Assembly: GCA_030630935.1 (NCBI GenBank) | Contig: DAOVMD010000028.1 | Coordinates: 1-13,967 of the forward strand | Origin: Candidatus Mcinerneyibacteriota bacterium | Lineage (GTDB): Bacteria > AUK180 > JAQVHJ01 | Length of the DNA: 13,967 nucleotides | Direction of reading: 5' to 3' | Shown here: one piece after another, positions 347 through 13,540 of the stretch | Layout: every line of letters starts with the position of its first letter | Numbering within the stretch: position 1 is the stretch's first letter | Translations under genes and position numbers: made by a program | The notes under the pieces: generated by a model | Database searches by the model: none | The model's input: the letters and a program-made list of their open reading frames with translations, nothing else | What the model was told of the DNA's origin: nothing

Positions 347-3300
347 TTAAGAATATTGTTCAACTATTTTCTTTATTTTCTTATATCTTTTTTTATTTTT
401 AATTTCTTTCTCATTCGCATTAAATATTTTCTCTAAATCATGTATAACATAATATCGTACATCAATGTTTTCATCCAAATATTTTTTATTATATTTTAGG
501 AATAATTCAAATAAATCCAAGAAGTCTTCTTGATGATCTTTAAATATCAATTCAAAGGCAATATCATGTGGAAACCATAATGTTATTGGTTTCTTGTTTT
601 CTAAATGATATTTCATTTCTGTTTCTAATGTATTTTTGAAAAGTTTTAAATATTCATTATATTCAGATTCTTTTAAATTCCATTTAAATATCTCCTCGAA
701 TGAATAATAGATTCCTTCAAAAGATCTTTTATCATATTTTTTTAATATCTCTTTCCAATATTTTTTTATTTTTTGGAAATTAGTTTTACTATCTTTGGCA
801 ATTCTCCAAAATTCAAATGCAAATTTTTCTTTAAATGTACTATCTTCCCTGCATAATTTCTTTAACCTTTCTTGAAATCGTTTTTTATCAAAATCCTTTT
901 CTTTTTTAAATTCAGCAAAATAAATAAATAGAAAGTCAGCTCTATCAATTTCATACTTTTCAAAAAAATCTAATACATTATTTGCTTTGGTTGTTGAAAT
1001 ATCTCTAATATATGAAAACATTGTCAATAAATGTTTGACAATTGCATAAGGTTTATATCCTTCTATGAATAATTTATCTGTGCTCTCTAACAATTCAAAT
1101 GCAATAACTTTTATTTGATCACCTAAACCTTCTTCATATTCATTCATTCTTTTTCTTCTTGCAGGATGTGCTAATTCGACTAATGGAACCATCGCTTGCT
1201 TTCTAACATATAGATCTGGCTCTGTATAACCTTTACCTATTTTGCCAGCAGTTTTTCCATCTAAATCCAATAATATCTTTGTTTCTTCAAATGCATATTT
1301 CATCAATTCCGGTTTATTAGTTACAACAAATTCATGTAATAACCAACATACATGTCCCCTCACAGATATAATTCTCTTTGAGTCTTCATTGTTTTTTACC
1401 TTATTACTATAATTCCATTCTGAATCTTTATCTGTATTTGGATCTTCATCATATAAATTCAAATCAACTATCTCCTTTGCCTCTTCATAATGTCCTGTTT
1501 TTACTAATTCATTTCCTAAGTTTACAATTAATTCGCGGAAATAAGATAACTTTCTAAATTTTTGTCGATATTGTTTCTTATTCTTAAAATATCTCTTTAA
1601 TAGATTATATGTTTCAAATGGAAATTCTTTAGAGCTCTCTCGAAGTGGAGATTGTAAAAATTGTAATATTAATTCTGGGACATTCCTGCTTTTCTCAAGT
1701 AATCTGATTATAAAATCTTTTCCATAATTTGTTTCATTTCTAAAATCACTTAAAAGAACACCACTTAAGATTTTCCCTTTTTCTGATATATCAAATCTAT
1801 CAAACAACTTTAAATATTTATAAATATTAATTACTTTAAATATTTTTATAATAAACTGTGGATTATTTTCTGGAATTGTCGAATAACCAATCTGTTCAAA
1901 AGAATCATAGAATTGTTCTTGTTTAAAAAATTTAGGATGTTTTATAAGCTTTAAATAATAATTTTCTGCTTCAATATATTTTAATTCAATTAACTTAATT
2001 AATGTAGATATCACGAATAAATTTGTAGGTAATCCTTTATAATCTTCTAAATCAAATTTCTGTGAATCTATTTCTATTAACTTTATTATTTCTTTTTCCC
2101 CAATTGCGTTTAGATTTGAATTTCTTAATACCTCAAAAATAATAGATGATGTACTTGGAATACCACCTTCTATTTTTATTATTTCTTCAAGATATTCTAA
2201 TAATTTTTTCCTTTCAAATTTATCGATTGTTTCTTTTTCTAAATTTTCTATAAACAATGGAACTAATACCCTTCTTAAAAACACTAAATTTTTTGATGAT
2301 ATTTTCTTTTTTAGTATTTTACCTTCAAAAATACCATATGCATTGTCTTTATTCTTTTCATATAGATATCTAAAAAATTTAGTGAATACTAATTTAACAA
2401 CACCCTTTTCCGATATAGTAAACTGACTTCCGGATCTTCCTACTCCCATCCCGGATAATTCAAATCCGTTGAATGTACCATAATATCTAAATTCAAATTG
2501 TTTTGATATTTTATTTATGATATTTTCAAATTCATTGAAATAATTATTTTCCAAGTATTCCTCTACAATTAAAAATATTTTGGGCGGGGTTTCAATAAAG
2601 GCATCAGCAATATCTGTTGTTAAATCATATACCTCAAAGATAAAATCGATCATTTCTTTTTTATTTTCTGTTCTTTCATATAAATTCAAAACTATTACAG
2701 AAATTTCGTCATCTTCGTGTTTCAATATTCTTCTTCTGTATTTTTTCAAGTCTGATGTAACAGGATATAGAATTTTAATTTTCAGAAGCTTCTTAATTTT
2801 ACTGATAATTGTTTCATCTATACTTTCTGAAGTAATTTCCTTTAATGATCTTAGAATCTTATGAAAACTAAAATCTCCTTTTATTCTATCATAATATTCA
2901 CTGATAAAATCAATATATTCTTTGAATGAAATTAATTTGTTTTTATATTTTGCTATTACAATATCAACTGCATAACCAATATAATGCTTCTTTATTAAAA
3001 ATTTATCAATAAAAAACATGATGTCTTTATATTTAAAATTATTTCTCTTTAATTCATCAATGATAATAAACACTAAATATCTTTTATCTGTAATAGGAGT
3101 TAAAAACTTATGGTTTAAGATCTCTTGGAATTCCTCAGGAGTTCTTAAATATGATTCCAATTTTATTTTCTGTTCAACATATTTTTCTTTATTACTGAAA
3201 TAATCTGATTTATCAACGATATGATTCTTTAATTTATCAAATTCTATTAAAAAATCTGCTTTGGTTATAGAAACCCCATTTTTGCCGGCATACAAAATAT

Positions 3301-3862
3301 TTTGGAAAAATCTTGATACAATATTTTTTATATCCTCTTCATGGAAAAAGATTGGTTGATCATAAACAAAATATTCAATTATCTGATTTTGTATATATTC
3401 AATATCTTTAAATTCTTCTATCTTAGTAGAAAGCAAGAATACTATGTCATCTGCTTTCCAACCTTTTTTTAATAATCTTTTTACTATCTTATTTTCCTCA
3501 TATCGTTTCCCAGACCATATTTTCCAATAATATAATTGTTCTCTAATATAATTGTAATCTTCAATGAAATCTTTTGAAATATTTCTTACTATTATATTAA
3601 ATTTGTCATCATTACTTTTTATTTTTTTCTTTCCATCTTTAATTATATTTAATATACTTTTATAACTTAATGCACGTTTCCAGGATTTAACTTCAAAATT
3701 TATAACATAATTATCAAATATTAATGTGAAATCATTATATTTCTCTCCTTCAATTTGGATTTCAACAAATTCATTTTTATTAATATTCTTCAACAAGTAT
3801 AATAATGTAATATCTGCTTGATCCGAAATGCCAGATATATTATTTTTTCCTTTACTACTCAT
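347..3862 (-). CDS. Large protein with N-terminal Cap4/DUF4297-like nuclease domain and long helical (HEAT-like) C-terminal region
   Basis: This is the last gene of the hsdM-hsdS operon, about 1171 residues. I start it at ATG 3862, which has GGAGA about 8 bases upstream inside the end of the preceding gene; a GTG at 3865 is the alternative. Residues 1-110 read as a PD-(D/E)XK nuclease-like domain: a first helix with Q15, then E38, D44 and the strand motif ending E57-V-K59-S60, which are the expected catalytic Asp, Glu and Lys. Residues about 135-215 also resemble the neighbouring 253-residue protein. The rest is Lys/Glu/Ile-rich and mostly helical, with a HEAT-like stretch near 880-910 (VRKQAMVPLVELAHP). 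I see no Walker A motif, so it is not a STAND/Avs ATPase on this reading, and no signal peptide or membrane segment. The inferred role is a cytoplasmic DNA-degrading effector with a helical sensor or scaffold. The family assignment is by motif only. Confidence 0.7.
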   Translation of the reverse strand: MSSKGKNNISGISDQADITLLYLLKNINKNEFVEIQIEGEKYNDFTLIFDNYVINFEVKSWKRALSYKSILNIIKDGKKKIKSNDDKFNIIVRNISKDFIEDYNYIREQLYYWKIWSGKRYEENKIVKRLLKKGWKADDIVFLLSTKIEEFKDIEYIQNQIIEYFVYDQPIFFHEEDIKNIVSRFFQNILYAGKNGVSITKADFLIEFDKLKNHIVDKSDYFSNKEKYVEQKIKLESYLRTPEEFQEILNHKFLTPITDKRYLVFIIIDELKRNNFKYKDIMFFIDKFLIKKHYIGYAVDIVIAKYKNKLISFKEYIDFISEYYDRIKGDFSFHKILRSLKEITSESIDETIISKIKKLLKIKILYPVTSDLKKYRRRILKHEDDEISVIVLNLYERTENKKEMIDFIFEVYDLTTDIADAFIETPPKIFLIVEEYLENNYFNEFENIINKISKQFEFRYYGTFNGFELSGMGVGRSGSQFTISEKGVVKLVFTKFFRYLYEKNKDNAYGIFEGKILKKKISSKNLVFLRRVLVPLFIENLEKETIDKFERKKLLEYLEEIIKIEGGIPSTSSIIFEVLRNSNLNAIGEKEIIKLIEIDSQKFDLEDYKGLPTNLFVISTLIKLIELKYIEAENYYLKLIKHPKFFKQEQFYDSFEQIGYSTIPENNPQFIIKIFKVINIYKYLKLFDRFDISEKGKILSGVLLSDFRNETNYGKDFIIRLLEKSRNVPELILQFLQSPLRESSKEFPFETYNLLKRYFKNKKQYRQKFRKLSYFRELIVNLGNELVKTGHYEEAKEIVDLNLYDEDPNTDKDSEWNYSNKVKNNEDSKRIISVRGHVCWLLHEFVVTNKPELMKYAFEETKILLDLDGKTAGKIGKGYTEPDLYVRKQAMVPLVELAHPARRKRMNEYEEGLGDQIKVIAFELLESTDKLFIEGYKPYAIVKHLLTMFSYIRDISTTKANNVLDFFEKYEIDRADFLFIYFAEFKKEKDFDKKRFQERLKKLCREDSTFKEKFAFEFWRIAKDSKTNFQKIKKYWKEILKKYDKRSFEGIYYSFEEIFKWNLKESEYNEYLKLFKNTLETEMKYHLENKKPITLWFPHDIAFELIFKDHQEDFLDLFELFLKYNKKYLDENIDVRYYVIHDLEKIFNANEKEIKNKKRYKKIKKIVEQYS

Positions 3863-4616
3863 CACTTATCTCCATAATTGATTTATTTTGTGTGGGTTGA
3901 TTTTTCCTTCCTAAAATATCTGCAATTTTCACTAAAAGTTGGGCGATCTCTTTTGTATTTATTGAATCCAATATTTCGTCAGAATATTTAAGTTTATTTT
4001 TAATATCATATAAAGTTTTGCTAAACATTACTTTAGTATATTTTTCTGACTTTGATGCAAGTTCTAAAAACTTGCCAATAATTGAATACATCTCATGCTC
4101 TAAATACTTATGTGTTATTGGAATATCGATAACTTCATGAAGATCATTCAATATAATTGCTCGAAGATTTTTTTTTGAAATGTTAATTATCTGTATTCTA
4201 TCAATTTCAAATTTTGTAAAATCTAAATTTATTACTCTATTAATTTCATTTAGCATTTTTGGATGATTTATAGTACTTCTATTCAACCTTTGAATTATTG
4301 ACTTCACTCTATCAGCTTCTTTTGTGTTGAAATAATTTTCAGAGAATAAAGTACAATAAACATTTGAATCTTCTCTAATTTTAACTAAAAATCTTGATAA
4401 AATATCTTTTAGTTCATATAAATAAATTTTATTCTTACTTTTTGCTTGGCAATAAATTATTTTATTAGTAAAAAACAAAGAAAAATCTTCACCTAAGTGC
4501 TCAAGATGAAGATTTATAAAATTTGATTTTCTGAATTGTTTTAAAAGATTGTATAAACTAGTATAATGCTGATAAAGTATTTTTTCGTTTAGTTGTGCTC
4601 CGGGATTAATTTTCAT
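3855..4616 (-). CDS. Cap4/DUF4297-like nuclease-domain protein, short paralogue of the downstream gene
   Basis: A 253-residue protein whose start codon shares a base with the hsdS stop (TAATG at 4616) and whose end overlaps the next gene, so translation is probably coupled on both sides. The N-terminus matches the start of the large downstream protein almost position for position: Q16 in the first helix, E39, then D44-F-S-L-x-F-x-N-x-I-I, and Q57-A-K59-S60. Here the catalytic-type Glu is Gln, a variation known within PD-(D/E)XK nucleases. The later part (about 135-215) also aligns loosely with residues 135-215 of the large protein. It lacks the long helical tail. It may be a second nuclease subunit, a partner that forms a heteromer, or a regulator or inhibitor of the large protein. 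I do not recognise a characterised homologue. Confidence 0.65.
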   Translation of the reverse strand: MKINPGAQLNEKILYQHYTSLYNLLKQFRKSNFINLHLEHLGEDFSLFFTNKIIYCQAKSKNKIYLYELKDILSRFLVKIREDSNVYCTLFSENYFNTKEADRVKSIIQRLNRSTINHPKMLNEINRVINLDFTKFEIDRIQIINISKKNLRAIILNDLHEVIDIPITHKYLEHEMYSIIGKFLELASKSEKYTKVMFSKTLYDIKNKLKYSDEILDSINTKEIAQLLVKIADILGRKNQPTQNKSIMEISDE

Positions 4617-5833
4617 TATAATTTATTTTTTACAATCTCCCCTCTGAATGCTTTTTGCATTAATGAATTAAATAGGTTTTCAAGTTCAGTTAGAGATTCT
4701 TTCTGTTGTTGTTTTATTTTAATTATATTTAATACAACTTTCGCAAATTTATTTTGAATTTCAATTGGTGGTAAATAGGCTGGAAATTGTTTTAGTAAAG
4801 TTGGATTTATATTAGATTGATTAACTGATTTCCTACATCTTTCTTGAAATAACTTTTTAAAATAATCTGTATTTAGTAGAAAAGTAAACCATATTGCATT
4901 GAATTCATCTTTTAATCTAAGTTTAACTAAATAGGAAGCTAAAACTGCTTCTTTGTCTTTATTCCAAAATGATGTTTTTCCTACTCGCTCAGATGAGTTT
5001 GTCCTATTAAAAATAACATCCATATTTTGTAATTTTATTTTTTCAAATTCTTCTTTTGAAATATTAACATATTTTAAATTTGAAAAATCTAATTCACCAT
5101 TATAGCTAATATTCCCCATTCCAAGAATTGGATAACCTATTTTTTCATTATTTGATTTTTCGGATATTCCATATTCTGAATATTTAACAATGTTATTTAT
5201 AATTCCCATTTCCCAGTTTTTATTATTTTTCTGTGGCTCACCAAACATCTCTACAAATGTTGACTTTAGAAATTCATCTGCTAATCTAATGGTTTCCTTG
5301 CGTTTCTCAATTTTAGATCGAATATTGTCGAGTTGTTTTACAATTAAATTCTGATTTTCTTTTAAGGTTATAGGAAGTTTAATAAAATCAATGAAATTCT
5401 TATTAATACCTCCCTGACCACTACCATGAAAACTACGTAAGATATTTTTTTTCCCATATTCAGAAAATAAATAATAAAAAACAAATTTAGGTAACATTTC
5501 TTTATCATCAATTCTTAAAATAAATACATGTTCATTTACTGCAGATTTTTTATATGGAAAACTATTATCAACAAATGATACTTTTCCAGTTGTTGCACCA
5601 TCTTTAACAATTAATATATCATTATAGTTTATTACACCTTTTTTAAATTTCTCAAAAAAGCTAGATGAAATGAATTTTATTTTCTTAAAATTAAATCCGC
5701 CATAATTGTCAAGGTGTTCAGCTCCAATACTTGGAATACCATCACTTGTTAATGCTCCGCCTTTTTCTCTTTTTCCACTTTCCAAACAAATAAATATTTC
5801 TTTTAACTTTAAATATTTATTTTTCATAAACAT
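4616..5833 (-). CDS. hsdS: Type I restriction-modification specificity subunit HsdS
   Basis: The DNA-recognition subunit of the type I enzyme, about 405 residues, the usual length for a full HsdS with two half-sites. It shows two target recognition domains. The first ends near QGGINKNFIDFIKLPI and is followed by a coiled-coil spacer (KQLDNIRSKIEKRKETIRLA). The second ends near QSNINPTLLKQFPAYLPPI and is followed by a second coiled-coil and the C-terminal LMQKAFRGEI motif. The parallel order (recognition domain, spacer, twice) is typical. The longest frame opens with TTG at 5836; I prefer ATG 5833, and ATG 5827 is also possible. All lie inside the end of hsdM and none has a strong Shine-Dalgarno sequence, so translational coupling to hsdM is likely. 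The recognised DNA sequence cannot be read from the protein. Confidence 0.93.
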   Translation of the reverse strand: MFMKNKYLKLKEIFICLESGKREKGGALTSDGIPSIGAEHLDNYGGFNFKKIKFISSSFFEKFKKGVINYNDILIVKDGATTGKVSFVDNSFPYKKSAVNEHVFILRIDDKEMLPKFVFYYLFSEYGKKNILRSFHGSGQGGINKNFIDFIKLPITLKENQNLIVKQLDNIRSKIEKRKETIRLADEFLKSTFVEMFGEPQKNNKNWEMGIINNIVKYSEYGISEKSNNEKIGYPILGMGNISYNGELDFSNLKYVNISKEEFEKIKLQNMDVIFNRTNSSERVGKTSFWNKDKEAVLASYLVKLRLKDEFNAIWFTFLLNTDYFKKLFQERCRKSVNQSNINPTLLKQFPAYLPPIEIQNKFAKVVLNIIKIKQQQKESLTELENLFNSLMQKAFRGEIVKNKL

Positions 5834-7343
5834 CAATTTCTTTTTTTAAAATTTCTAGATCATGTGTAATTGATTTCTCAATTTCAATAATTTTGTTTAA
5901 AATTACTTCCGGTTTCTCATACTCAACTTCTTCATATTCGATTGATTTATATCGGTTTATTGAAAGGTCATAATCGTTTTCTTTGATCTCTTTAATATCA
6001 ACCCATAGCCATTTTTCTCCTTTCTCCGGTTCCTTATTCTTATTCCTGGTTTTCCATTTTTCAATTATATCCGGAATATCATTGTCCGTAATCTTCTTCC
6101 TTTTATCATCAAGGGAATATCCATCAGCCTGCATGTCATAGTACCAAATTTTATCTGTCTTCTCTCCCTTTGTGAATATTAAAACGGTTGTTGATACTCC
6201 TGCATAAGGTTTGAATACTCCACTGGGCATTGATAGTACCCCATCCAGACCGCATTTCTCAAGGATCAATTTCCTTACTTCTTTATGTGCATTACTCGAA
6301 CCAAACAAGACTCCATCAGGTACAATAACACCGCACCTGCCGCCTGGCATTAACATATTAATAAAAAGGTTTAGGAATAGTAATTCTGTTTTGGGTTTTT
6401 TACTCTTCCCGGCAACAGTAAGATCAGCTGCAACATCACTTTTATCAACACTTCCCTTAAATGGTGGATTGGCGAGGATTACATCAAAAATTTCCCTGTC
6501 CTTAAAATTTTTAGAGAGTGTGTCTGCATACTTAATATTAGGTTTTTGTATGCCATGTAAAACCATATTCATTAATCCTATCCGAACCATAGTTGTATCA
6601 AAATCATAGCCATAAAAACTCTTATCCCATAGAAATTTCCAGTGTTTTTTTTCAACAATCCTATCCCCGATTAAATTATGAGGAGCTCCTTCTTCATCAA
6701 ACTTAATTGATTCCGGATCGGTATTTTCTTTTAGTATATGATTATATGCTGAGAATAAAAATCCTCCTGTTCCGCAGGCGGGATCACAAATTTTCTCACC
6801 AAGCTTAGGATCAATTAACTCCACAATCATTCTTATAATATGCCTTGGAGTCCTGAATTGACCATTCTTACCGGAAGTTTTTATCTCATTTAATAAAAAC
6901 TCGTAAATATCTCCTTGAACATCAATGTTCTGGGATGCAAGATTAATTTCATCAATGATTGATACTGCCTCTTGTAAAAGCGATGCCTTGGGAATTAAAA
7001 AAACTGCATCCTTCATTGATTCTGAATAGAAATTACCACGACCCTTTAACTCTTTGATGAATTTAAAAACAATATCCCTGACATGAGATAACATGGACTC
7101 AGCATCAAAGTGCATCCAATGTGACCATCTACATTTAGGGTTATCTTTAAATATCGATTTATATTCATCTCCTTTCCTCTCTGCAGCACTCTTCTGCTGG
7201 TTGTCCATATCTTCCAATCTCTTCATGAAAATCAAATATGAAATCTGTTCAATCGCTGTTAATGGATTGGCAATACCGCCTGACCAGAATAAATCCCAAA
7301 GTTTATTAATTTTACTCTTAATTTCCGGATATGAATTTAACAT
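5817..7343 (-). CDS. hsdM: Type I restriction-modification methyltransferase subunit HsdM
   Basis: The adenine-N6 DNA methyltransferase subunit, which acts with HsdS as the modification enzyme and with HsdR as the restriction complex. It is 508 residues, normal for the family. The N-terminal helical domain begins with the IEQISYLIFMKRLED segment (31-45). Residues 162-169 are QFRTPRHI, 187-194 DPACGTGG (motif I, SAM binding) and 292-295 NPPF (motif IV, catalytic). The amino-acid style matches the EcoEI-like branch, consistent with the HsdR here. The ATG has a strong Shine-Dalgarno sequence, AAAGGAG (7349-7355), 5 bases upstream. It is the first gene of its own transcription unit, with a consensus promoter at 7396-7424. 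Nothing looks broken. Confidence 0.96.
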   Translation of the reverse strand: MLNSYPEIKSKINKLWDLFWSGGIANPLTAIEQISYLIFMKRLEDMDNQQKSAAERKGDEYKSIFKDNPKCRWSHWMHFDAESMLSHVRDIVFKFIKELKGRGNFYSESMKDAVFLIPKASLLQEAVSIIDEINLASQNIDVQGDIYEFLLNEIKTSGKNGQFRTPRHIIRMIVELIDPKLGEKICDPACGTGGFLFSAYNHILKENTDPESIKFDEEGAPHNLIGDRIVEKKHWKFLWDKSFYGYDFDTTMVRIGLMNMVLHGIQKPNIKYADTLSKNFKDREIFDVILANPPFKGSVDKSDVAADLTVAGKSKKPKTELLFLNLFINMLMPGGRCGVIVPDGVLFGSSNAHKEVRKLILEKCGLDGVLSMPSGVFKPYAGVSTTVLIFTKGEKTDKIWYYDMQADGYSLDDKRKKITDNDIPDIIEKWKTRNKNKEPEKGEKWLWVDIKEIKENDYDLSINRYKSIEYEEVEYEKPEVILNKIIEIEKSITHDLEILKKEIDVYEK

Positions 7344-7355
7344 TTTATCTCCTTT

Positions 7356-7478
7356 AATAGGGTATTTTTGTTTTAATATTACCCCATTTATTGTTATTAT
7401 AACATATTTGTCCTAATTTGTCAAGGGGGTAATCGTTGTTGCGTTTTACCCCATTTACTGAAGGGTTACCCTATTTTA
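7356..7478. promoter_or_regulatory. Cluster of TTACCC(C/T) repeats around the hsdM promoter (putative operators)
   Basis: The 12-mer TTACCCCATTTA occurs twice exactly, at 7379-7390 and 7446-7457. An inverted TTACCCC lies at 7426-7432 beside the -35 box. A TTACCCTATTTT copy lies at 7466-7477, overlapping the fic stop codon, and an inverted copy (AATAGGGTA) at 7356-7364 touches the hsdM Shine-Dalgarno sequence. One exact copy covers the predicted transcription start and the other lies upstream of -35, the classic layout for a repressor that binds on both sides of a promoter. The binding protein is unknown; the Fic winged helix encoded just upstream is one candidate. Confidence 0.6.
7389..7424 (-). 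promoter_or_regulatory. Consensus sigma70-type promoter for hsdM
   Basis: On the minus strand TTGACA (7419-7424) and TATAAT (7396-7401) are both perfect and are separated by 17 bases. Transcription should start near 7389-7390, giving a leader of about 46 bases before the hsdM ATG. This separates the modification and nuclease genes from hsdR-fic, which have their own promoter. Confidence 0.85.
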
Positions 7479-8509
7479 TGCCATTTGGCAGCGCGACCAA
7501 TACCGTAGCACTTAATTTTACCTTCATCACGTAAGTCACGGAGAATTTTTCGAATCATATCCCTACTGACATTGGGACAATTCTGTTCCAAATCAGAAAT
7601 TGCAAAGGGCTTAATAAACTTCTCGATCTGTGAGATAACTTGTTCTGTTTTAGTTGATTTCCCTTCAAATACACCAACTCTTTCCTCAAACTCCTTATAG
7701 GCACTAATTAAGATTCCAAGAAAGTAATTCAACCAGGGGAAGACATCATGTTTTCCTTTGTCCCATTTCTGTGAAGACAGTAATAGGGTATCGTAATATT
7801 GATCTTTTGATTCTTCAACAATTCGTTCTAAGCTAATATACTTTCCTATCTTAAATCCTGCTTTATATAATAAAAGTAATGTTAACAACCTTGAAATTCT
7901 TCCATTCCCATCAGAGAATGGATGGATACAAAGAAAATCCAGGATGAATAAAGCAATCAATAAAATATCCGGATACTTATCTTCATTTAAAATCTTATTC
8001 ATTAAAGTTGTGATTTCAGCTATAAACCTAGGTGTTTCAAATGCAGAAACGGTTTTTAATCTTAGTTTTTTTGATCCATTTGGATAAATATCAATTAAAA
8101 GATTCTCCCCTGTTTTCCAGGAACCAGATTTCTTTGTTGAATACCTATATAACATTGAATGAAACTGTAGAATAATATTTTCATTAATAGGAATATCTTT
8201 ATGTGATTGATGTATAATATTTAACACATCCTTATATCCTGCGATTTCTTGTTCAGACCTGTTTTTAGGTTTGGAATTTGACTTTACAATCTTTTCTATT
8301 CTGTGATGCGGAGCAACTATTTTTTCAATTCTGCAAGATGACTCAGTGCTTTGAACAACTGCACTCTCCAGAAGTTTCTCCAAAATATCCGGACTCTGCT
8401 TTCTAAATAAATCTTCCTTACCCTTATATTCACCTAACCTTTCAAAGTATGTAATAATTTCAGGTGGGAATTTAAGTTTACTTATGAACTTATCATTTAA
8501 TGATTTCAT
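7466..8509 (-). CDS. Fic-domain protein (putative AMP transferase) with C-terminal winged helix
   Basis: A 347-residue cytoplasmic protein. The Fic active-site motif is complete: HPFSDGNGRISR at 196-207, with catalytic H196, D200 and R207. Such proteins usually transfer AMP from ATP to a Ser, Thr or Tyr of a target. Upstream, S58-C-R-I-E62 fits the inhibitory helix motif (S/T)xxxE, but the next residue is K63 rather than the common Gly or Asn. A similar RIEKIV string recurs at 70-75. Residues about 290-347 form a winged helix (ISDLEQNCPNVSRDMIRKILRDL then a wing), suggesting DNA binding. The start codon overlaps the hsdR stop (TAATG at 8509), with a weak GGAAAAG upstream. Fic genes between hsdR and hsdM are a known arrangement in type I loci; their job there is not established. 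It may regulate the locus or modify a subunit. Confidence 0.9.
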   Translation of the reverse strand: MKSLNDKFISKLKFPPEIITYFERLGEYKGKEDLFRKQSPDILEKLLESAVVQSTESSCRIEKIVAPHHRIEKIVKSNSKPKNRSEQEIAGYKDVLNIIHQSHKDIPINENIILQFHSMLYRYSTKKSGSWKTGENLLIDIYPNGSKKLRLKTVSAFETPRFIAEITTLMNKILNEDKYPDILLIALFILDFLCIHPFSDGNGRISRLLTLLLLYKAGFKIGKYISLERIVEESKDQYYDTLLLSSQKWDKGKHDVFPWLNYFLGILISAYKEFEERVGVFEGKSTKTEQVISQIEKFIKPFAISDLEQNCPNVSRDMIRKILRDLRDEGKIKCYGIGRAAKWHKIG

Positions 8510-11319
8510 TAAGCTTTTCCATTGATATGTAATTGATTGAATATCTGAATGATTTCTCTTAACTCACCCTCACTAAATATTTTAATCGCAGCATCTATAC
8601 CCATTGAAGTAAATGGCGGGTCGAATAAATCATTATATTCAATTTTCTTCTTTTTAGCAAAAACATTTTTAATTGTTCTTAAGAATAACAATTGATCGGA
8701 ATTTAACGGGTTTCTATTATTTCTTTCCACAACATAAGTATTGAAAGCATCATTAATTAAATCTTCAGGTTTAGGAAATTCATACATTCCGATAATAAAT
8801 TTTATAAATTCAACAAGCGTAGCATAAGGTTGGGAATAAACCTTCTTCAAGTTATCTTCAGAAATATACAGCTCCGGGCTATTTAATTCATTTTCTAAAT
8901 TAACCAAATCTTCTTCTGTAATTACTTGGTTTTTTTTGATCTTCTGAATAGTTTTATTTTGTTCTGCAATGTTCAAGATATAATCTTCTATTCTCTTTCT
9001 ATAATTAATAACATAATCTCCTTCTCCTTCCGGACCAAACTCTAACCATTTTCTTTGAATAATCTCATCATCTATATCAAGTTCTATCAATTCCCGGGGT
9101 AGAACCATTTTATGTTTCATTAGTTCAGTAAGCTCATCTTTGATCCATTCTACTTTATCATAATCTAAATCTAACCAAAACTCATCCGAAATCACTTTCA
9201 AAATAATTTCCTTCTTTTTCTTAACTGAACTCAGATTCATGGGTAAACATTTAAGATCACTGATAATGGAATTTCTCAGTAATTCAATATCTTTATTATT
9301 ATCTATCAAAATGACCAAGCCTAATCTCTCAACTTTTAATAAAAACTTAAGTTGGTTGATATTGAATTCTGTGATAAATCTTGTTAAGGGAGCAATCGTA
9401 TCATAGAGAAATTCATAAGATTTTTCTTCAAATATTTCCCAGGTATTAGCCGACAGAGCTTTATCTATATTCTTTCTGTTTTCCTTAATTGTAATTGAGG
9501 TTTCAGGAAGGTGCTTTATATCATTTATTAATTCACCCTTAATCTTATTGATATGATCTTCATGTTTTTTATTAATAAATATTTTGAGCTTCTCCAATCT
9601 TGTTTTAAATATTTTACTCGGTATTGGATCCAACTGTGCCGGGCGTTCTCCTTCCGGTTTTTCTCCAAAATATTCAAAGTTATTCCAATGATCAATGATT
9701 AAAAATTGATCCTTTTCTAAGCACCACGGTTTCCTGTTTTCAATTTTCTTCTCTAAAATTCTTGTTCCCCTGCCTATCATTTGCCAAAATTTGATCTTAC
9801 TGAAAACAGGTTTTGCAAAAACAAGATTGCAGATTTCTTTAATATCAACACCTGTATCCAACATATCTACTGAAATAGCAATTCTGGGAAAGTTTTCATT
9901 TTTAAACTTGTCAATTAACCTTAATGGCCTTTCCATTTTTGAATCAATAATTTCTACTAATCTTCCTTTATATTCAGGATATAATTTATTAAATATCTTC
10001 CAGAGTCTTTTAGCATGAGCATGGGAAATGGCAAATATTATTGTCTTTGCAGGAATTACACCGGAATCATCTTTTATACAAACATCCATAAACTCTCTAA
10101 CCAGAGATTCGTTAGTCCCTAAATTTGTAACCTTTTTTTCAAAGTCGGTTCCTTCAAAATCAATCTCTTCAAGAGAATAACCCTCAGCAATCATTTTCTT
10201 TTGAATACTCGGTGGGAGTTCATTTCCCTTGATCCCCTTAATTTGAAAATTCGTTTTTGCTGAATATGCCGGTCTGAAATCCACAAGAACTTTCTCGCTG
10301 ACAGCTTTTTCATACGAATAGTTAAATGTAGGACACTTATCTTCACAATCAAAGAATTTAAATGTATCTCTTTCAACAAAATCACTTGGAGTTGCAGTTA
10401 AACCAATCTGAATCGCGTGAAAATAACTTAGAACATCTCTCCATTTATTATATATGGATCGATGACATTCGTCTGAAATAATTAAATCAAAAAAACCAGG
10501 TGTTACAGTATGAAACCTCTGCATCATTGTTTGGATTGTTGAAACATATAATCTTGAGGAAGAATCAATTTCACTTGACCATATATAAGACCGTGATTCA
10601 CTAGGTATATGTGTTTTAAATCCATCGATAAATGCTTGGTTTGCTAGGACACTTCGATCGACAAGAAAAAGAACTCGTTTTACCCACTTAGCTCGAAGTA
10701 AAACATCTATCAAAGCGGTTACTGTCCTGGTCTTACCTGTTCCTGTCGCCATAACCAGGAGAAATTTTCTTTTATTCTTCTCTAAACCCTCAAATATTCG
10801 TTTACAAGCTTCAATTTGATAATCTCTATCGATTATCTCAGGCTTAATAGGAATTAATGACAAATCTTTTCTATTTCTATTCTGAAATTGAATTCGTTCA
10901 AGCTCTGTTCTCTCAAAAAAACCATGAACCATTAAGGGGGGATATCTTTCTCTATTCCAAAACCATGTTTCATATCCATTCGTTAAGAAAATCAATGGAT
11001 TAACATTGTGTACCTTTTTTATTCCATCTGCATAATCTTCAGCTTGCTGAATTCCTGAGATAGGATCTCTTGAAGTCCTTTTCGCTTCAACAACAGCTAA
11101 AGGATCACCCTTTCTATCTAATAATAAATAATCAGAAAAACCTGAATCCCCTGAATCCTTTACTCCATTTATAATCTTATATTTCCCTGCACCAGTTCCC
11201 TCAATTTCAAATTCAGGAACTACTTGGGAAAAATTCTGAACATCCCAATTTGCTTTTAATAAAGCTTTATCAATTAATTCTTTTCGGGTCTGAGCTTCTG
11301 TATAATCTTCTTCAAACAT
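8509..11319 (-). CDS. hsdR: Type I restriction enzyme R subunit HsdR (EcoEI-like)
   Basis: The ATP-driven translocase and nuclease of the type I complex, about 936 residues from ATG 11319. The frame opens at GTG 11334, but the promoter places the transcript start near 11344, and GGTG 9 bases before ATG 11319 is a better ribosome site. Counting from that ATG: the nuclease domain has D63, E78 and K80 (VVEAK); Walker A is MATGTGKT 190-197; the Walker B box is DECH 283-286; TATP lies at 308-311; and helicase motif VI is QMIGRGTR 513-520. The C-terminal 180 or so residues look like the EcoEI_R_C domain that contacts the modification enzyme. All key residues are present, so the gene appears intact. 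It forms a two-gene unit with fic, transcribed separately from hsdM-hsdS. Confidence 0.95.
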   Translation of the reverse strand: MFEEDYTEAQTRKELIDKALLKANWDVQNFSQVVPEFEIEGTGAGKYKIINGVKDSGDSGFSDYLLLDRKGDPLAVVEAKRTSRDPISGIQQAEDYADGIKKVHNVNPLIFLTNGYETWFWNRERYPPLMVHGFFERTELERIQFQNRNRKDLSLIPIKPEIIDRDYQIEACKRIFEGLEKNKRKFLLVMATGTGKTRTVTALIDVLLRAKWVKRVLFLVDRSVLANQAFIDGFKTHIPSESRSYIWSSEIDSSSRLYVSTIQTMMQRFHTVTPGFFDLIISDECHRSIYNKWRDVLSYFHAIQIGLTATPSDFVERDTFKFFDCEDKCPTFNYSYEKAVSEKVLVDFRPAYSAKTNFQIKGIKGNELPPSIQKKMIAEGYSLEEIDFEGTDFEKKVTNLGTNESLVREFMDVCIKDDSGVIPAKTIIFAISHAHAKRLWKIFNKLYPEYKGRLVEIIDSKMERPLRLIDKFKNENFPRIAISVDMLDTGVDIKEICNLVFAKPVFSKIKFWQMIGRGTRILEKKIENRKPWCLEKDQFLIIDHWNNFEYFGEKPEGERPAQLDPIPSKIFKTRLEKLKIFINKKHEDHINKIKGELINDIKHLPETSITIKENRKNIDKALSANTWEIFEEKSYEFLYDTIAPLTRFITEFNINQLKFLLKVERLGLVILIDNNKDIELLRNSIISDLKCLPMNLSSVKKKKEIILKVISDEFWLDLDYDKVEWIKDELTELMKHKMVLPRELIELDIDDEIIQRKWLEFGPEGEGDYVINYRKRIEDYILNIAEQNKTIQKIKKNQVITEEDLVNLENELNSPELYISEDNLKKVYSQPYATLVEFIKFIIGMYEFPKPEDLINDAFNTYVVERNNRNPLNSDQLLFLRTIKNVFAKKKKIEYNDLFDPPFTSMGIDAAIKIFSEGELREIIQIFNQLHINGKA

Positions 11320-11343
11320 ACTTTTATGCACCACTTTGTATTA

Positions 11344-11379
11344 TATTCAAATTATACATTAAATATTTTATCATGTCAA
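11344..11379 (-). promoter_or_regulatory. Consensus sigma70-type promoter for hsdR-fic
   Basis: On the minus strand TTGACA (11374-11379) and TATAAT (11351-11356) are perfect and 17 bases apart. The predicted transcription start is near 11344, about 25 bases before ATG 11319 but only about 10 before the GTG at 11334, which is part of the reason for choosing the ATG. Confidence 0.83.
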
Positions 11380-11552: not shown

Positions 11553-12035
11553 TTATTTACTTTCTTCTTTTTCACAAATAAAATTGAATAATTTAATAAG
11601 CTCTTCTTCACAATCATTAATATGTGGTCTAATATGATTGCTTAATTGAAAATGAAACTCAAATAAAAGTTCACTTAACTCATTATAATCAAAGTTATTT
11701 GGATCATTAAATTTAATTAAAACCTCATTAAAAATATCCATAAAAGCATCATAAATATCGTAAATCCCTACTGATATAGTTATAAGTTCTTTTTCATTAT
11801 AACCAAGTTTTAAACATTTTTTTACGAAATCATCACTTAATTTTGCATATAGTTTTTCCTCCGTTGAATCATGTGGTAGGGATTCTGGTATAACATGAAT
11901 ATTTTCAATGACATTTATTAATTCTTCAAGGGATAAGCTATTTGTATGTTCGACAATTTTTTGAGATTTAATATCAAATGTATCATTTCCTTCTGATAAG
12001 CTAACTACTAATTTTAATAATTTTTTATAAGCCAT
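11553..12035 (-). CDS. Hypothetical 160-residue acidic helical protein coupled to the DNA methyltransferase
   Basis: Function not recognised. The protein is acidic (many Glu and Asp), predicted mostly helical, with no signal peptide, membrane segment or zinc-binding cysteines. Its ATG shares a base with the methyltransferase stop codon (TAATG at 12035), and a strong Shine-Dalgarno sequence, AAAGGAGG, sits about 11 bases upstream inside that gene, so the two are made together. In this position a restriction endonuclease partner would be expected. At 160 residues that is just possible, since some type II enzymes are this small, but I see only a weak candidate (FDIKSQK near residue 20) and no convincing PD...(D/E)XK arrangement. 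It could equally be a small accessory or inhibitor protein. Confidence 0.7.
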   Translation of the reverse strand: MAYKKLLKLVVSLSEGNDTFDIKSQKIVEHTNSLSLEELINVIENIHVIPESLPHDSTEEKLYAKLSDDFVKKCLKLGYNEKELITISVGIYDIYDAFMDIFNEVLIKFNDPNNFDYNELSELLFEFHFQLSNHIRPHINDCEEELIKLFNFICEKEESK

Positions 12036-12949
12036 TATTCAAATAACCTCCTTTGAACTGCTTCTTTCATTCGCTTTTTAATAATTTCAAAACTTTTTTT
12101 ATCTTTTTCTATTAAAATATATTTTCTATCTAAAATCTTTGCAGCAAGTCCTGTAGTTCCACTTCCAGCAAAAGGATCTAAAATAATATGACCTTTTAAA
12201 GTAAGCATCTCAATAAGTCCAGAAAATAATTTTATTGGTTTTTGAGCTTCGTGCAAACCTCTATCATTTATATTATAATCACATTTAAATATATTATTTG
12301 GATTGCTAAACCATTCCTTTACGGCTTTTTCATTATATGCACCTAATTCATTTTCTACAAGATTATCAGTAACTGTAATTTTATATGGTTTAAAAAACCA
12401 TAATATTGGTTCAAAATTGGGTTTCAAATTTCCTAAGCGCCAATTATTCCACTTTTCAGCATTTTCGTTATCACCACGTCTTTCAAAAACAATTTTAACT
12501 CTTTGTGCTCGATGAACAGCTTGCGAACGTTCCCAAGCGATCATATCTCTGAAATTAAAACCTGTATCTTCTAAAGCAACGATACATCTCGCGGCAAAAC
12601 GTCTTCCAGCAAAAATTATTGCAGAACCACCGGGTTTTAGAACTCTTAAGGTATCTTCTGCCCAAGATGAACACCATTCTTGATATTGTTTTGGAATTTC
12701 TTTGTCAGCATTCGACCAACCATTAATAGGTTTTCCTCGACGTTTAAAAACATTTCCTGCATTTAATTGAGCTGGACTTGAGCCTAATAATGCAGAATTA
12801 GTATTGTCATGTAAAACATCCCACTTATCAAGCGATATACCGTAAGGAATATCACTCAATATCATATGTACAGAATTGTCTGGAATATTTTTTAATACAT
12901 TTCTACAATCATCACAAATAATTTTATTATAGAATTCTTTTATTTTCAT
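12035..12949 (-). CDS. Beta-class site-specific DNA methyltransferase (adenine-N6 or cytosine-N4)
   Basis: A 304-residue SAM-dependent DNA amino-methyltransferase. The catalytic motif IV comes first, as S32-D33-I34-P35-Y36-G37, and the SAM-binding motif I comes late, as D258-P-F-A-G-S-G-T. This order (IV, target recognition region, X, I) defines the beta class. HEAQKP at 233-238 is the usual segment before motif I. Motif IV reads DIPY in place of the more common DPPY; the key D, P and Y are kept. It starts at ATG 12949 without an evident Shine-Dalgarno sequence. It may be transcribed from the strong promoter of the small basic gene 145 bases upstream or from a weak local promoter. The target sequence cannot be read. 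It is either the modification half of a type II system with the following gene or a solitary methyltransferase. Confidence 0.92.
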   Translation of the reverse strand: MKIKEFYNKIICDDCRNVLKNIPDNSVHMILSDIPYGISLDKWDVLHDNTNSALLGSSPAQLNAGNVFKRRGKPINGWSNADKEIPKQYQEWCSSWAEDTLRVLKPGGSAIIFAGRRFAARCIVALEDTGFNFRDMIAWERSQAVHRAQRVKIVFERRGDNENAEKWNNWRLGNLKPNFEPILWFFKPYKITVTDNLVENELGAYNEKAVKEWFSNPNNIFKCDYNINDRGLHEAQKPIKLFSGLIEMLTLKGHIILDPFAGSGTTGLAAKILDRKYILIEKDKKSFEIIKKRMKEAVQRRLFE

Positions 12950-13264: not shown

Positions 13265-13300
13265 ACACTAAATTATAACCTATTTCATTTAATAAGTCAA
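13265..13300 (-). promoter_or_regulatory. Near-consensus sigma70-type promoter for the small basic gene
   Basis: On the minus strand TTGACT (13295-13300) and a perfect TATAAT (13272-13277) are separated by 17 bases. The transcription start should lie near 13265, giving a leader of about 18 bases with the GAGGAG ribosome site. Confidence 0.82.
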
Positions 13301-13325
13301 ATTATTTTTTCAATTAGTTTCATTT

Positions 13326-13380
13326 AAATAGGGTATTATGGAGTCCGAATTACCCTATTTATTAATATGTTACCCTATTC
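13326..13380. promoter_or_regulatory. Phased TTACCCTATT repeats upstream of the small basic gene
   Basis: TTACCCTATT occurs at 13350-13359 and 13370-13379, exactly 20 bases (two helical turns) apart, with an inverted AATAGGGTA at 13327-13335. They lie about 26-80 bases upstream of the -35 box, a position typical of an activator or of a cooperative repressor. The motif is the same as the repeats around the hsdM promoter about 6 kb away, which points to a shared DNA-binding protein. Confidence 0.55.
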
Positions 13381-13425
13381 GGTTAACTCCATTATCCTCA
13401 CCGATAACAGAGAGCTGAGAATCGA

Positions 13426-13458
13426 CCCAGAACCACGCACTTCGTTAGGGTATCTGGG
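13426..13458 (-). repeat. Hairpin repeat, right copy (inverted relative to the copy at 239-269)
   Basis: CCCAGA 13426-13431 pairs with TCTGGG 13453-13458, and ACC and ACG continue the stem towards GGT and CGT around CACTT. The 21-base core matches the reverse complement of the left copy at 19 positions, while the outer arms differ but remain paired. With the left copy it brackets the whole defence cluster. Confidence 0.6.
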
Positions 13459-13486
13459 CTCCGAGAACAGTCGTTTTACAGGTTAA

Positions 13487-13540
13487 AGCATTATTATAAT
13501 TAATGCAAATATTAAATTATCAATTAACAATTATCAATAT
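13487..13540. repeat. AT-rich short repeats downstream of the partial methyltransferase gene
   Basis: GCATTA 13488-13493 and TAATGC 13501-13506 form a hairpin with a 7-base loop. AATTATCAAT then occurs twice, at 13515-13524 and 13529-13538, a 14-base period. The hairpin could act as a weak terminator for the gene ending at 13561. Otherwise this is simple-sequence spacer. Confidence 0.35.

Follow-up and report, generated by a model that had tools for sequence, protein, structure and literature searches.

The repeats around the hsdM promoter of the analysed stretch of DNA (13,967 nucleotides; hereafter the window) are, judging from their sequence, a real regulatory switch site, and the protein that binds them is very probably the Fic protein encoded just upstream. 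With a probability of roughly three in four, this Fic protein binds through its C-terminal winged helix and represses hsdM and hsdS, and in other genetic settings its own promoter. The window holds a complete type I restriction-modification set, with hsdR, hsdM and hsdS all matched by Pfam and PADLOC; its main genes are arranged as follows.

hsdR, 8509..11334, minus strand: Pfam and PADLOC matches.
Promoter of hsdR, 11351..11379, minus strand: TTGACA-17-TATAAT, 12 of 12 consensus positions, without a composite element.
fic, 7466..8509, minus strand: Fic/Fido domain and C-terminal winged helix; proposed operator-binding protein.
hsdM, 5817..7343, minus strand: Pfam N6_Mtase and HsdM_N, PADLOC; proposed target gene.
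hsdS, 4616..5836, minus strand: Pfam Methylase_S, PADLOC.
Type II-like N6/N4 DNA methylase, 12035..12949, minus strand: downstream of the second predicted operator.

Since hsdS overlaps the end of hsdM, the two genes are presumably carried on the same transcript; likewise, the overlap of hsdR with the start of fic makes co-transcription of these two genes presumable. Straight after hsdS, two adjacent genes (347-4616) encode proteins of 1172 and 253 amino acids without a match in Pfam, NCBIfam or PADLOC, and are candidates for an undescribed defence pair. A 160-aa open reading frame (11553-12035) matches HindIII-type restriction enzymes in their N-terminal part alone (profile positions 22-99 of 321); located beside an intact type II-like methylase gene, it is probably the remnant of a truncated nuclease. 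The island sits between sequences that resemble a family of repeats dispersed over the host genome (13376-13500 and 1-330), with 43 assembly matches to 13320-13500 and similar-looking sequence at the window start (CCCTAGCGAAGCGCGTGGTTC).

The predicted regulatory features lie in two places, between fic and hsdM and upstream of the type II-like methylase gene.

TACCCY sites between fic and hsdM: 7359-7364 (minus strand), 7380-7385 (plus), 7426-7431 (minus), 7447-7452 (plus) and 7467-7472 (plus).
12-mer TTACCCCATTTA: two exact copies, 7379-7390 and 7446-7457.
Promoter of hsdM, 7396..7424, minus strand: TTGACA (7424-7419)-17-TATAAT (7401-7396), 12 of 12 positions.
Predicted composite operator O1, 7427..7472, minus strand: inverted pair GGGTA-N15-TACCC (7427-7451) and a direct half-site one 20-bp step beyond.
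Predicted operator O2, 7360..7384, minus strand: inverted pair GGGTA-N15-TACCC, over the predicted start and towards the hsdM ribosome-binding site.
Half-site TTACCCTATTTT, 7466..7477, plus strand: on the minus strand, the last fic codons and the stop codon (ATA GGG TAA).
Second predicted composite operator, 13331..13376, minus strand: half-sites and spacings as in O1, upstream of the type II methylase gene.
Promoter-like TTGACT-17-TATAAT, 13272..13300, minus strand: 11 of 12 positions, before a 50-aa basic open reading frame (13247-13095) and the methylase gene.

The preliminary description of this DNA had reported five TACCC(C/T) sites, a duplicated 12-mer and a perfect promoter for hsdM on the evidence of the letters alone; all five sites, both copies of the 12-mer and the fully consensus minus-strand promoter were recovered. 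Its further claims, that one repeat covers the predicted transcription start and another touches the ribosome site, also held, as the half-site at 7380-7389 covers the start (about position 7389) and the extended half-site at 7353-7364 runs into the hsdM ribosome-binding site. Across the window, TACCCY occurs 15 times (mean of shuffled sequences 5.8, largest 12). Beyond the earlier account, the sites prove to be paired, the half-site at 7467 coincides with the end of fic, a second element occurs at 13331-13376, and the composite pattern is found just twice in the whole assembly. O1 abuts the -35 box of hsdM, its A-rich flank overlapping this box, and spans approximately -38 to -80, counted from the predicted start; the inverted pairs of O1 and O2 are 67 bp apart, one on each side of the promoter, and the direct half-site follows the second pair at exactly 20 bp (7447 to 7467).

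The composite pattern GGTA-N15-TACC-N16-TACC has exactly two matches in the 3.16-Mb assembly, both within the window; its reversed control has none in the assembly, and 300 dinucleotide shuffles of the window did not yield the pattern once. Of the simpler pair GGGTA-N15-TACCC the assembly has six copies, three lying in the window. The second composite element lies approximately 30 bp upstream of its TTGACT-17-TATAAT promoter and wholly upstream of the -35 box; since it is placed upstream of this promoter and not on it, it would suit activation as well. The repeat family at 13381-13500 was considered as a source of the 13331 operator and rejected, as the genomic copies start at or beyond approximately query position 56, past the inverted pair.

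The geometry of these elements follows fic into other genomes. A survey for Fic homologs in whole genomes, plasmids, phage records and viral contigs yielded 139 loci (L numbers below), or 115 after loci with similar flanks were removed; the viral scan returned no loci with a single-protein query and 80 with an alignment query, and the Acidovorax fic gene had no BLASTN match in E. coli genomes. In the flanks of the 115 loci, the favoured spacings of GGTA..TACC are 19 and 39 (11 each; mean over other spacings 1.4), and those of GGTA..GGTA are 20 (21) and 12 (11; mean 2.4). When the letters are left free, direct 8-mers at a step of 20 occur within 300 bp upstream of fic in 22 loci (mean 2.6), and downstream of fic at peak steps of 20 and 12; there is no step-20 peak inside fic or at -1000 to -700. 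The three-half-site element, with free letters, is present in 36 of the 115 non-redundant loci at steps of 20 or 21, compared to 0-6 loci at other steps and 0-1 after the flanks were shuffled; about two thirds of the loci are without it by this test. An A at position -5 before GGTA, which was not part of the selection, is found in 48 of 49 aligned half-sites, and among all GGTA occurrences in the flanks in 56 of 70 paired versus 124 of 349 unpaired copies. Counts of 7-mers against mononucleotide shuffles were too weak for single loci. The initial absence of exact GGGTA-N15-TACCC from the first relatives was a false negative, since the half-site letters vary while the geometry is conserved.

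In several phyla, on plasmids and on viral contigs, elements of this geometry are found either in the promoter of fic or at its stop codon. The closest parallel is L057, which has the gene order hsdR-fic-hsdM of the window (Fic 61% identical; hsdR broken up in the assembly). From its fic stop codon an array TAGGTA-N14-TAGGTA-N15-TACCCA leads to a TTGACA-17-TATAAT promoter with another half-site on the -10 box; thus the expectation that relatives keeping the operon would keep the repeats is borne out in L057 by an element and a promoter in the same place, with changed half-site letters. L072 (Fic 58% identical) carries the same element as L057, in the same place, without hsd genes nearby. Elements just upstream of fic were found in L078, L085, L097 (a plasmid of Acidovorax sp. 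DW039), L106, L110, L112 and L121; L078 and L106, and L085 and L110, are close relatives, so that these pairs are not independent. That fic homologs without restriction genes carry the element in their own promoter speaks for its operator-like nature, and, since many element loci are without restriction genes, Fic is the shared factor. Other type I neighbours of fic include hsdR-fic-hsdS (L079, L210), an hsdR N-terminus (L097), and an hsdR remnant, hsdS and hsdM (L121). In L091 and L093, fic directly precedes an hsdM gene whose product is 48% identical to the window HsdM, but the Fic recognition helix differs; the L093 fic promoter has inverted repeats ATTACATCA, with letters unlike those of the window. 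Upstream of fic, L092 (G099:C5) shows a fully symmetric set of four half-sites, TTTTCGTCCA-20-TTTTCGTCCA / TGGACGAAAA-20-TGGACGAAAA, with a further copy just past the fic stop codon, and L111 (G862:C127) a near-perfect palindrome AAATGGTGTAATAT-7-ATATTACACCATTT, with GGGTA-type half-sites on both sides.

A GGTA half-site overlaps or touches the fic stop codon in 14 of 112 loci (background 2.8%). Arrays at the stop codon are common in solo relatives, often with a direct step of 12 bp, and the downstream genes are unrelated. Direct GGTA half-sites with this 12-bp step were seen at the fic stop of L075, L077, L079, L080, L082, L083, L084 and L095, without a conserved downstream gene; some of these repeats encode the Fic C-terminal tail (KRG or KIG, followed by the stop). 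Since the stop codon is overlapped in different frames (GGG-TAA or TAG-GTA) depending on the locus, it is the DNA that is conserved and not the peptide. As a caveat, promoter repression does not explain the many solo arrays at the fic stop codon that have no conserved gene downstream.

The half-site letters change together with the recognition helix of the Fic protein.

Helix (S/T)R(D/A)x(I/V)(R/K): half-site (T/G)RGGTA.
Helix S(V/E)TTIE(K/R): half-site TCTGCAT.
Helix S(L/V)SS(I/V)EG: half-site TTCCCTTA.
Helix SKASVE: half-site TTCKCCTAA.
Helix (S/G)RSSALAAL: half-site TTTTCGTCCA.
Helix (S/A)(R/H)xTI(N/Q)R: half-site ACATGATCA.

Helix similarity and half-site similarity are correlated (Spearman 0.49, a value reached in none of 2000 permutations; helix register set by hand, five loci with unclear helices excluded). 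The correlation is 0.40 after allowing for catalytic-domain identity and also holds when the pairs share under 50% identity across the catalytic region. Association of GGTA elements with helix class, tested in a simpler way, had p = 1.2e-6. The suggestion that Fic could be the binder is supported by these comparisons, as the geometry follows fic across the 115 loci and the letters follow its recognition helix.

The window Fic protein (347 aa) has the Fic motif HPFSDGNGR and a C-terminal winged helix at residues of about 287-345. The extended motif HxFx(D/E)GNGRxxR is matched by HPFSDGNGRISR, with a core that is invariant in the homolog alignment; the PF02661 match is above the cut-off (E 5.4e-14) and is the only Pfam match, so that a WYL domain is absent by this search. 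Of the inhibitory (S/T)xxxE(G/N) region, S58-CRI-E62 is present, followed by K63 in place of G/N. In the full-length model (pLDDT 91) the Fic domain precedes a segment of three helices with a wing of two strands; a separate model of the last 64 residues reached pLDDT 90.5, and winged-helix DNA-binding domains were the best matches to this segment (Z about 9-10, with rmsd 1.6-2.6 over 57-64 residues). The winged helix previously attributed to this protein is thus present in both predicted models.

The nearest solved relative is a Fic family protein of Bordetella bronchiseptica (PDB 8uqu; E 2.5e-149 for the full chain sequence against the family profile, and Z 37 for the N-terminal domain), which shares the SRDM(V/I)R recognition helix, although the crystal holds the N-terminal domain only. 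SoFic (SO_4266) of Shewanella oneidensis (PDB 3eqx, 3zcn) likewise combines a Fic domain with a C-terminal winged helix; the window Fic matches the PADLOC SoFic model but, at 43 bits, stays well short of the 550-bit NCBIfam cut-off for SoFic. The C proteins of type II systems are small helix-turn-helix proteins that time methylase and nuclease expression via operators inside the system. The timing of methylase and nuclease proposed here, through operators inside the system, resembles their role, whereas the putative regulator is a 347-aa Fic enzyme and the system is of type I; the 50-aa basic open reading frame, the only small candidate for a type II C protein in the window, had no Pfam match.

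CccR of Yersinia pseudotuberculosis, a secreted effector with a Fic domain and a C-terminal helix-turn-helix, binds inverted repeats near the -35 and -10 boxes of its own promoter; footprint, gel shift and autorepression have been demonstrated, autorepression requires the CccR dimer, and the operator consists of two half-sites, AGATAATCAT-N26-ATGATAATCT (PMC9755527). As a Fic-HTH autorepressor, CccR provides an experimental precedent for the proposed role of the window Fic (PMC9755527). The window Fic also has a C-terminal winged helix in its predicted model, and the window and its relatives carry predicted inverted-repeat operators at promoters. In contrast, the window shows neither the operator letters nor the N26 spacing of CccR: its half-sites read (T/G)(A/G)GGTA, the inverted pair has an N15 spacer, further half-sites are placed at the 20-bp step, and the main proposed target is a type I restriction-modification promoter. 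PDB 7xux, which we take from its title and date to be CccR, is remote from the Fic family profile (E 5.6e-12). Operators at two island places, as predicted in the window, are also known for BrxR, a DNA-binding repressor encoded in a defence island that acts on inverted repeats; yet BrxR has a WYL domain and is not a Fic enzyme, and its repeats are 11 bp long with a spacer of 5 bp (PMC9122601).

In the proposed mechanism, a Fic oligomer would set its C-terminal winged helices on the A-rich (T/G)(A/G)GGTA half-sites, in direct steps of 20-21 bp and as an inverted pair; with Fic next to the -35 box at O1 and on top of the start at O2, RNA polymerase would be blocked and hsdM-hsdS repressed. We infer repression because O1 adjoins the -35 box and overlaps it with its flank, O2 lies across the start, and a promoter of this strength should need no activator. 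As the hsdR-fic promoter is strong and has no composite element, the level of Fic would rise together with that of HsdR. In a newly acquired island, hsdM and hsdS, still free of Fic, would be made first and at full strength; later, HsdR and Fic would accumulate and hsdM-hsdS would be throttled, a timing role that we put forward as a proposal. In solo relatives, the element in the fic promoter would mediate autoregulation.

The same binding could have the opposite sign: Fic may activate hsdM, or may switch between activation from the site upstream of the -35 box and repression from the site over the start. O1 (approximately -38 to -80) and the 13331 element occupy normal activator positions; however, O2 covers the start, the hsdM promoter already matches the consensus at 12 of 12 positions and should need no activator, half-sites of L057 overlap the -10 box, and CccR is a repressor (PMC9755527), so that activation appears unlikely. 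The arrays might alternatively mark fic for mobility or maintenance, as a recombination or partition-like site, and have no part in transcription control. This is consistent with arrays that often begin exactly at the fic stop codon and with solo fic genes in unrelated contexts, but the arrays flank a consensus promoter in the window and in L057 and lie in the fic promoter region in L078, L085, L097, L110, L112 and L121, which renders a mobility mark improbable.

Binding by a different protein of the island (HsdM, the methylase, the product of the 50-aa basic open reading frame, or the 253-aa and 1172-aa proteins) could be entertained because the island encodes several unassigned proteins; it is more improbable still, given that a plasmid and members of several phyla have the element next to a solo fic gene and lack all of these genes, and that the half-site letters track the Fic recognition helix. 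Single TACCCY sites are short and could arise by chance in an AT-rich intergenic region, yet none of the controls gives the pattern and the genome-wide and family-wide counts speak against chance, which is hardly a credible source of it. Repression by Fic through its winged helix thus remains the preferred reading.

A Fic-HTH autorepressor is already known in CccR (PMC9755527), and CccR was the only relevant result when the open-access journal literature was searched for a known operator of this Fic subfamily, an operator or function for PDB 8uqu, and Fic proteins in type I operons. In the literature searched, three aspects appear to be new: a multi-half-site operator with a 20-bp step that is common to a broad Fic subfamily, half-site letters that change with the recognition helix, and such an operator at a type I restriction promoter. 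The establishment of type I systems is described in parts of a review as being controlled by HsdR proteolysis and subunit assembly (PMC12707154); the present proposal is one of transcriptional control of a type I restriction system. Winged-helix Fic proteins of the C-terminal kind occur widely, but a mapped operator was found in the literature searched for CccR only; the present analysis adds predicted operators at about 36 loci, which fall into roughly eight classes of half-site, and both their conserved geometry and the relation between helix and site are directly testable. More speculatively, the whole subfamily may act as regulators that bind an operator with an unvarying 20-bp step and follow a readable code from helix to DNA; in restriction-modification islands the enzymatic state of Fic (AMP transfer or self-modification) might then release methylase repression, so that the island would answer a signal from the cell.
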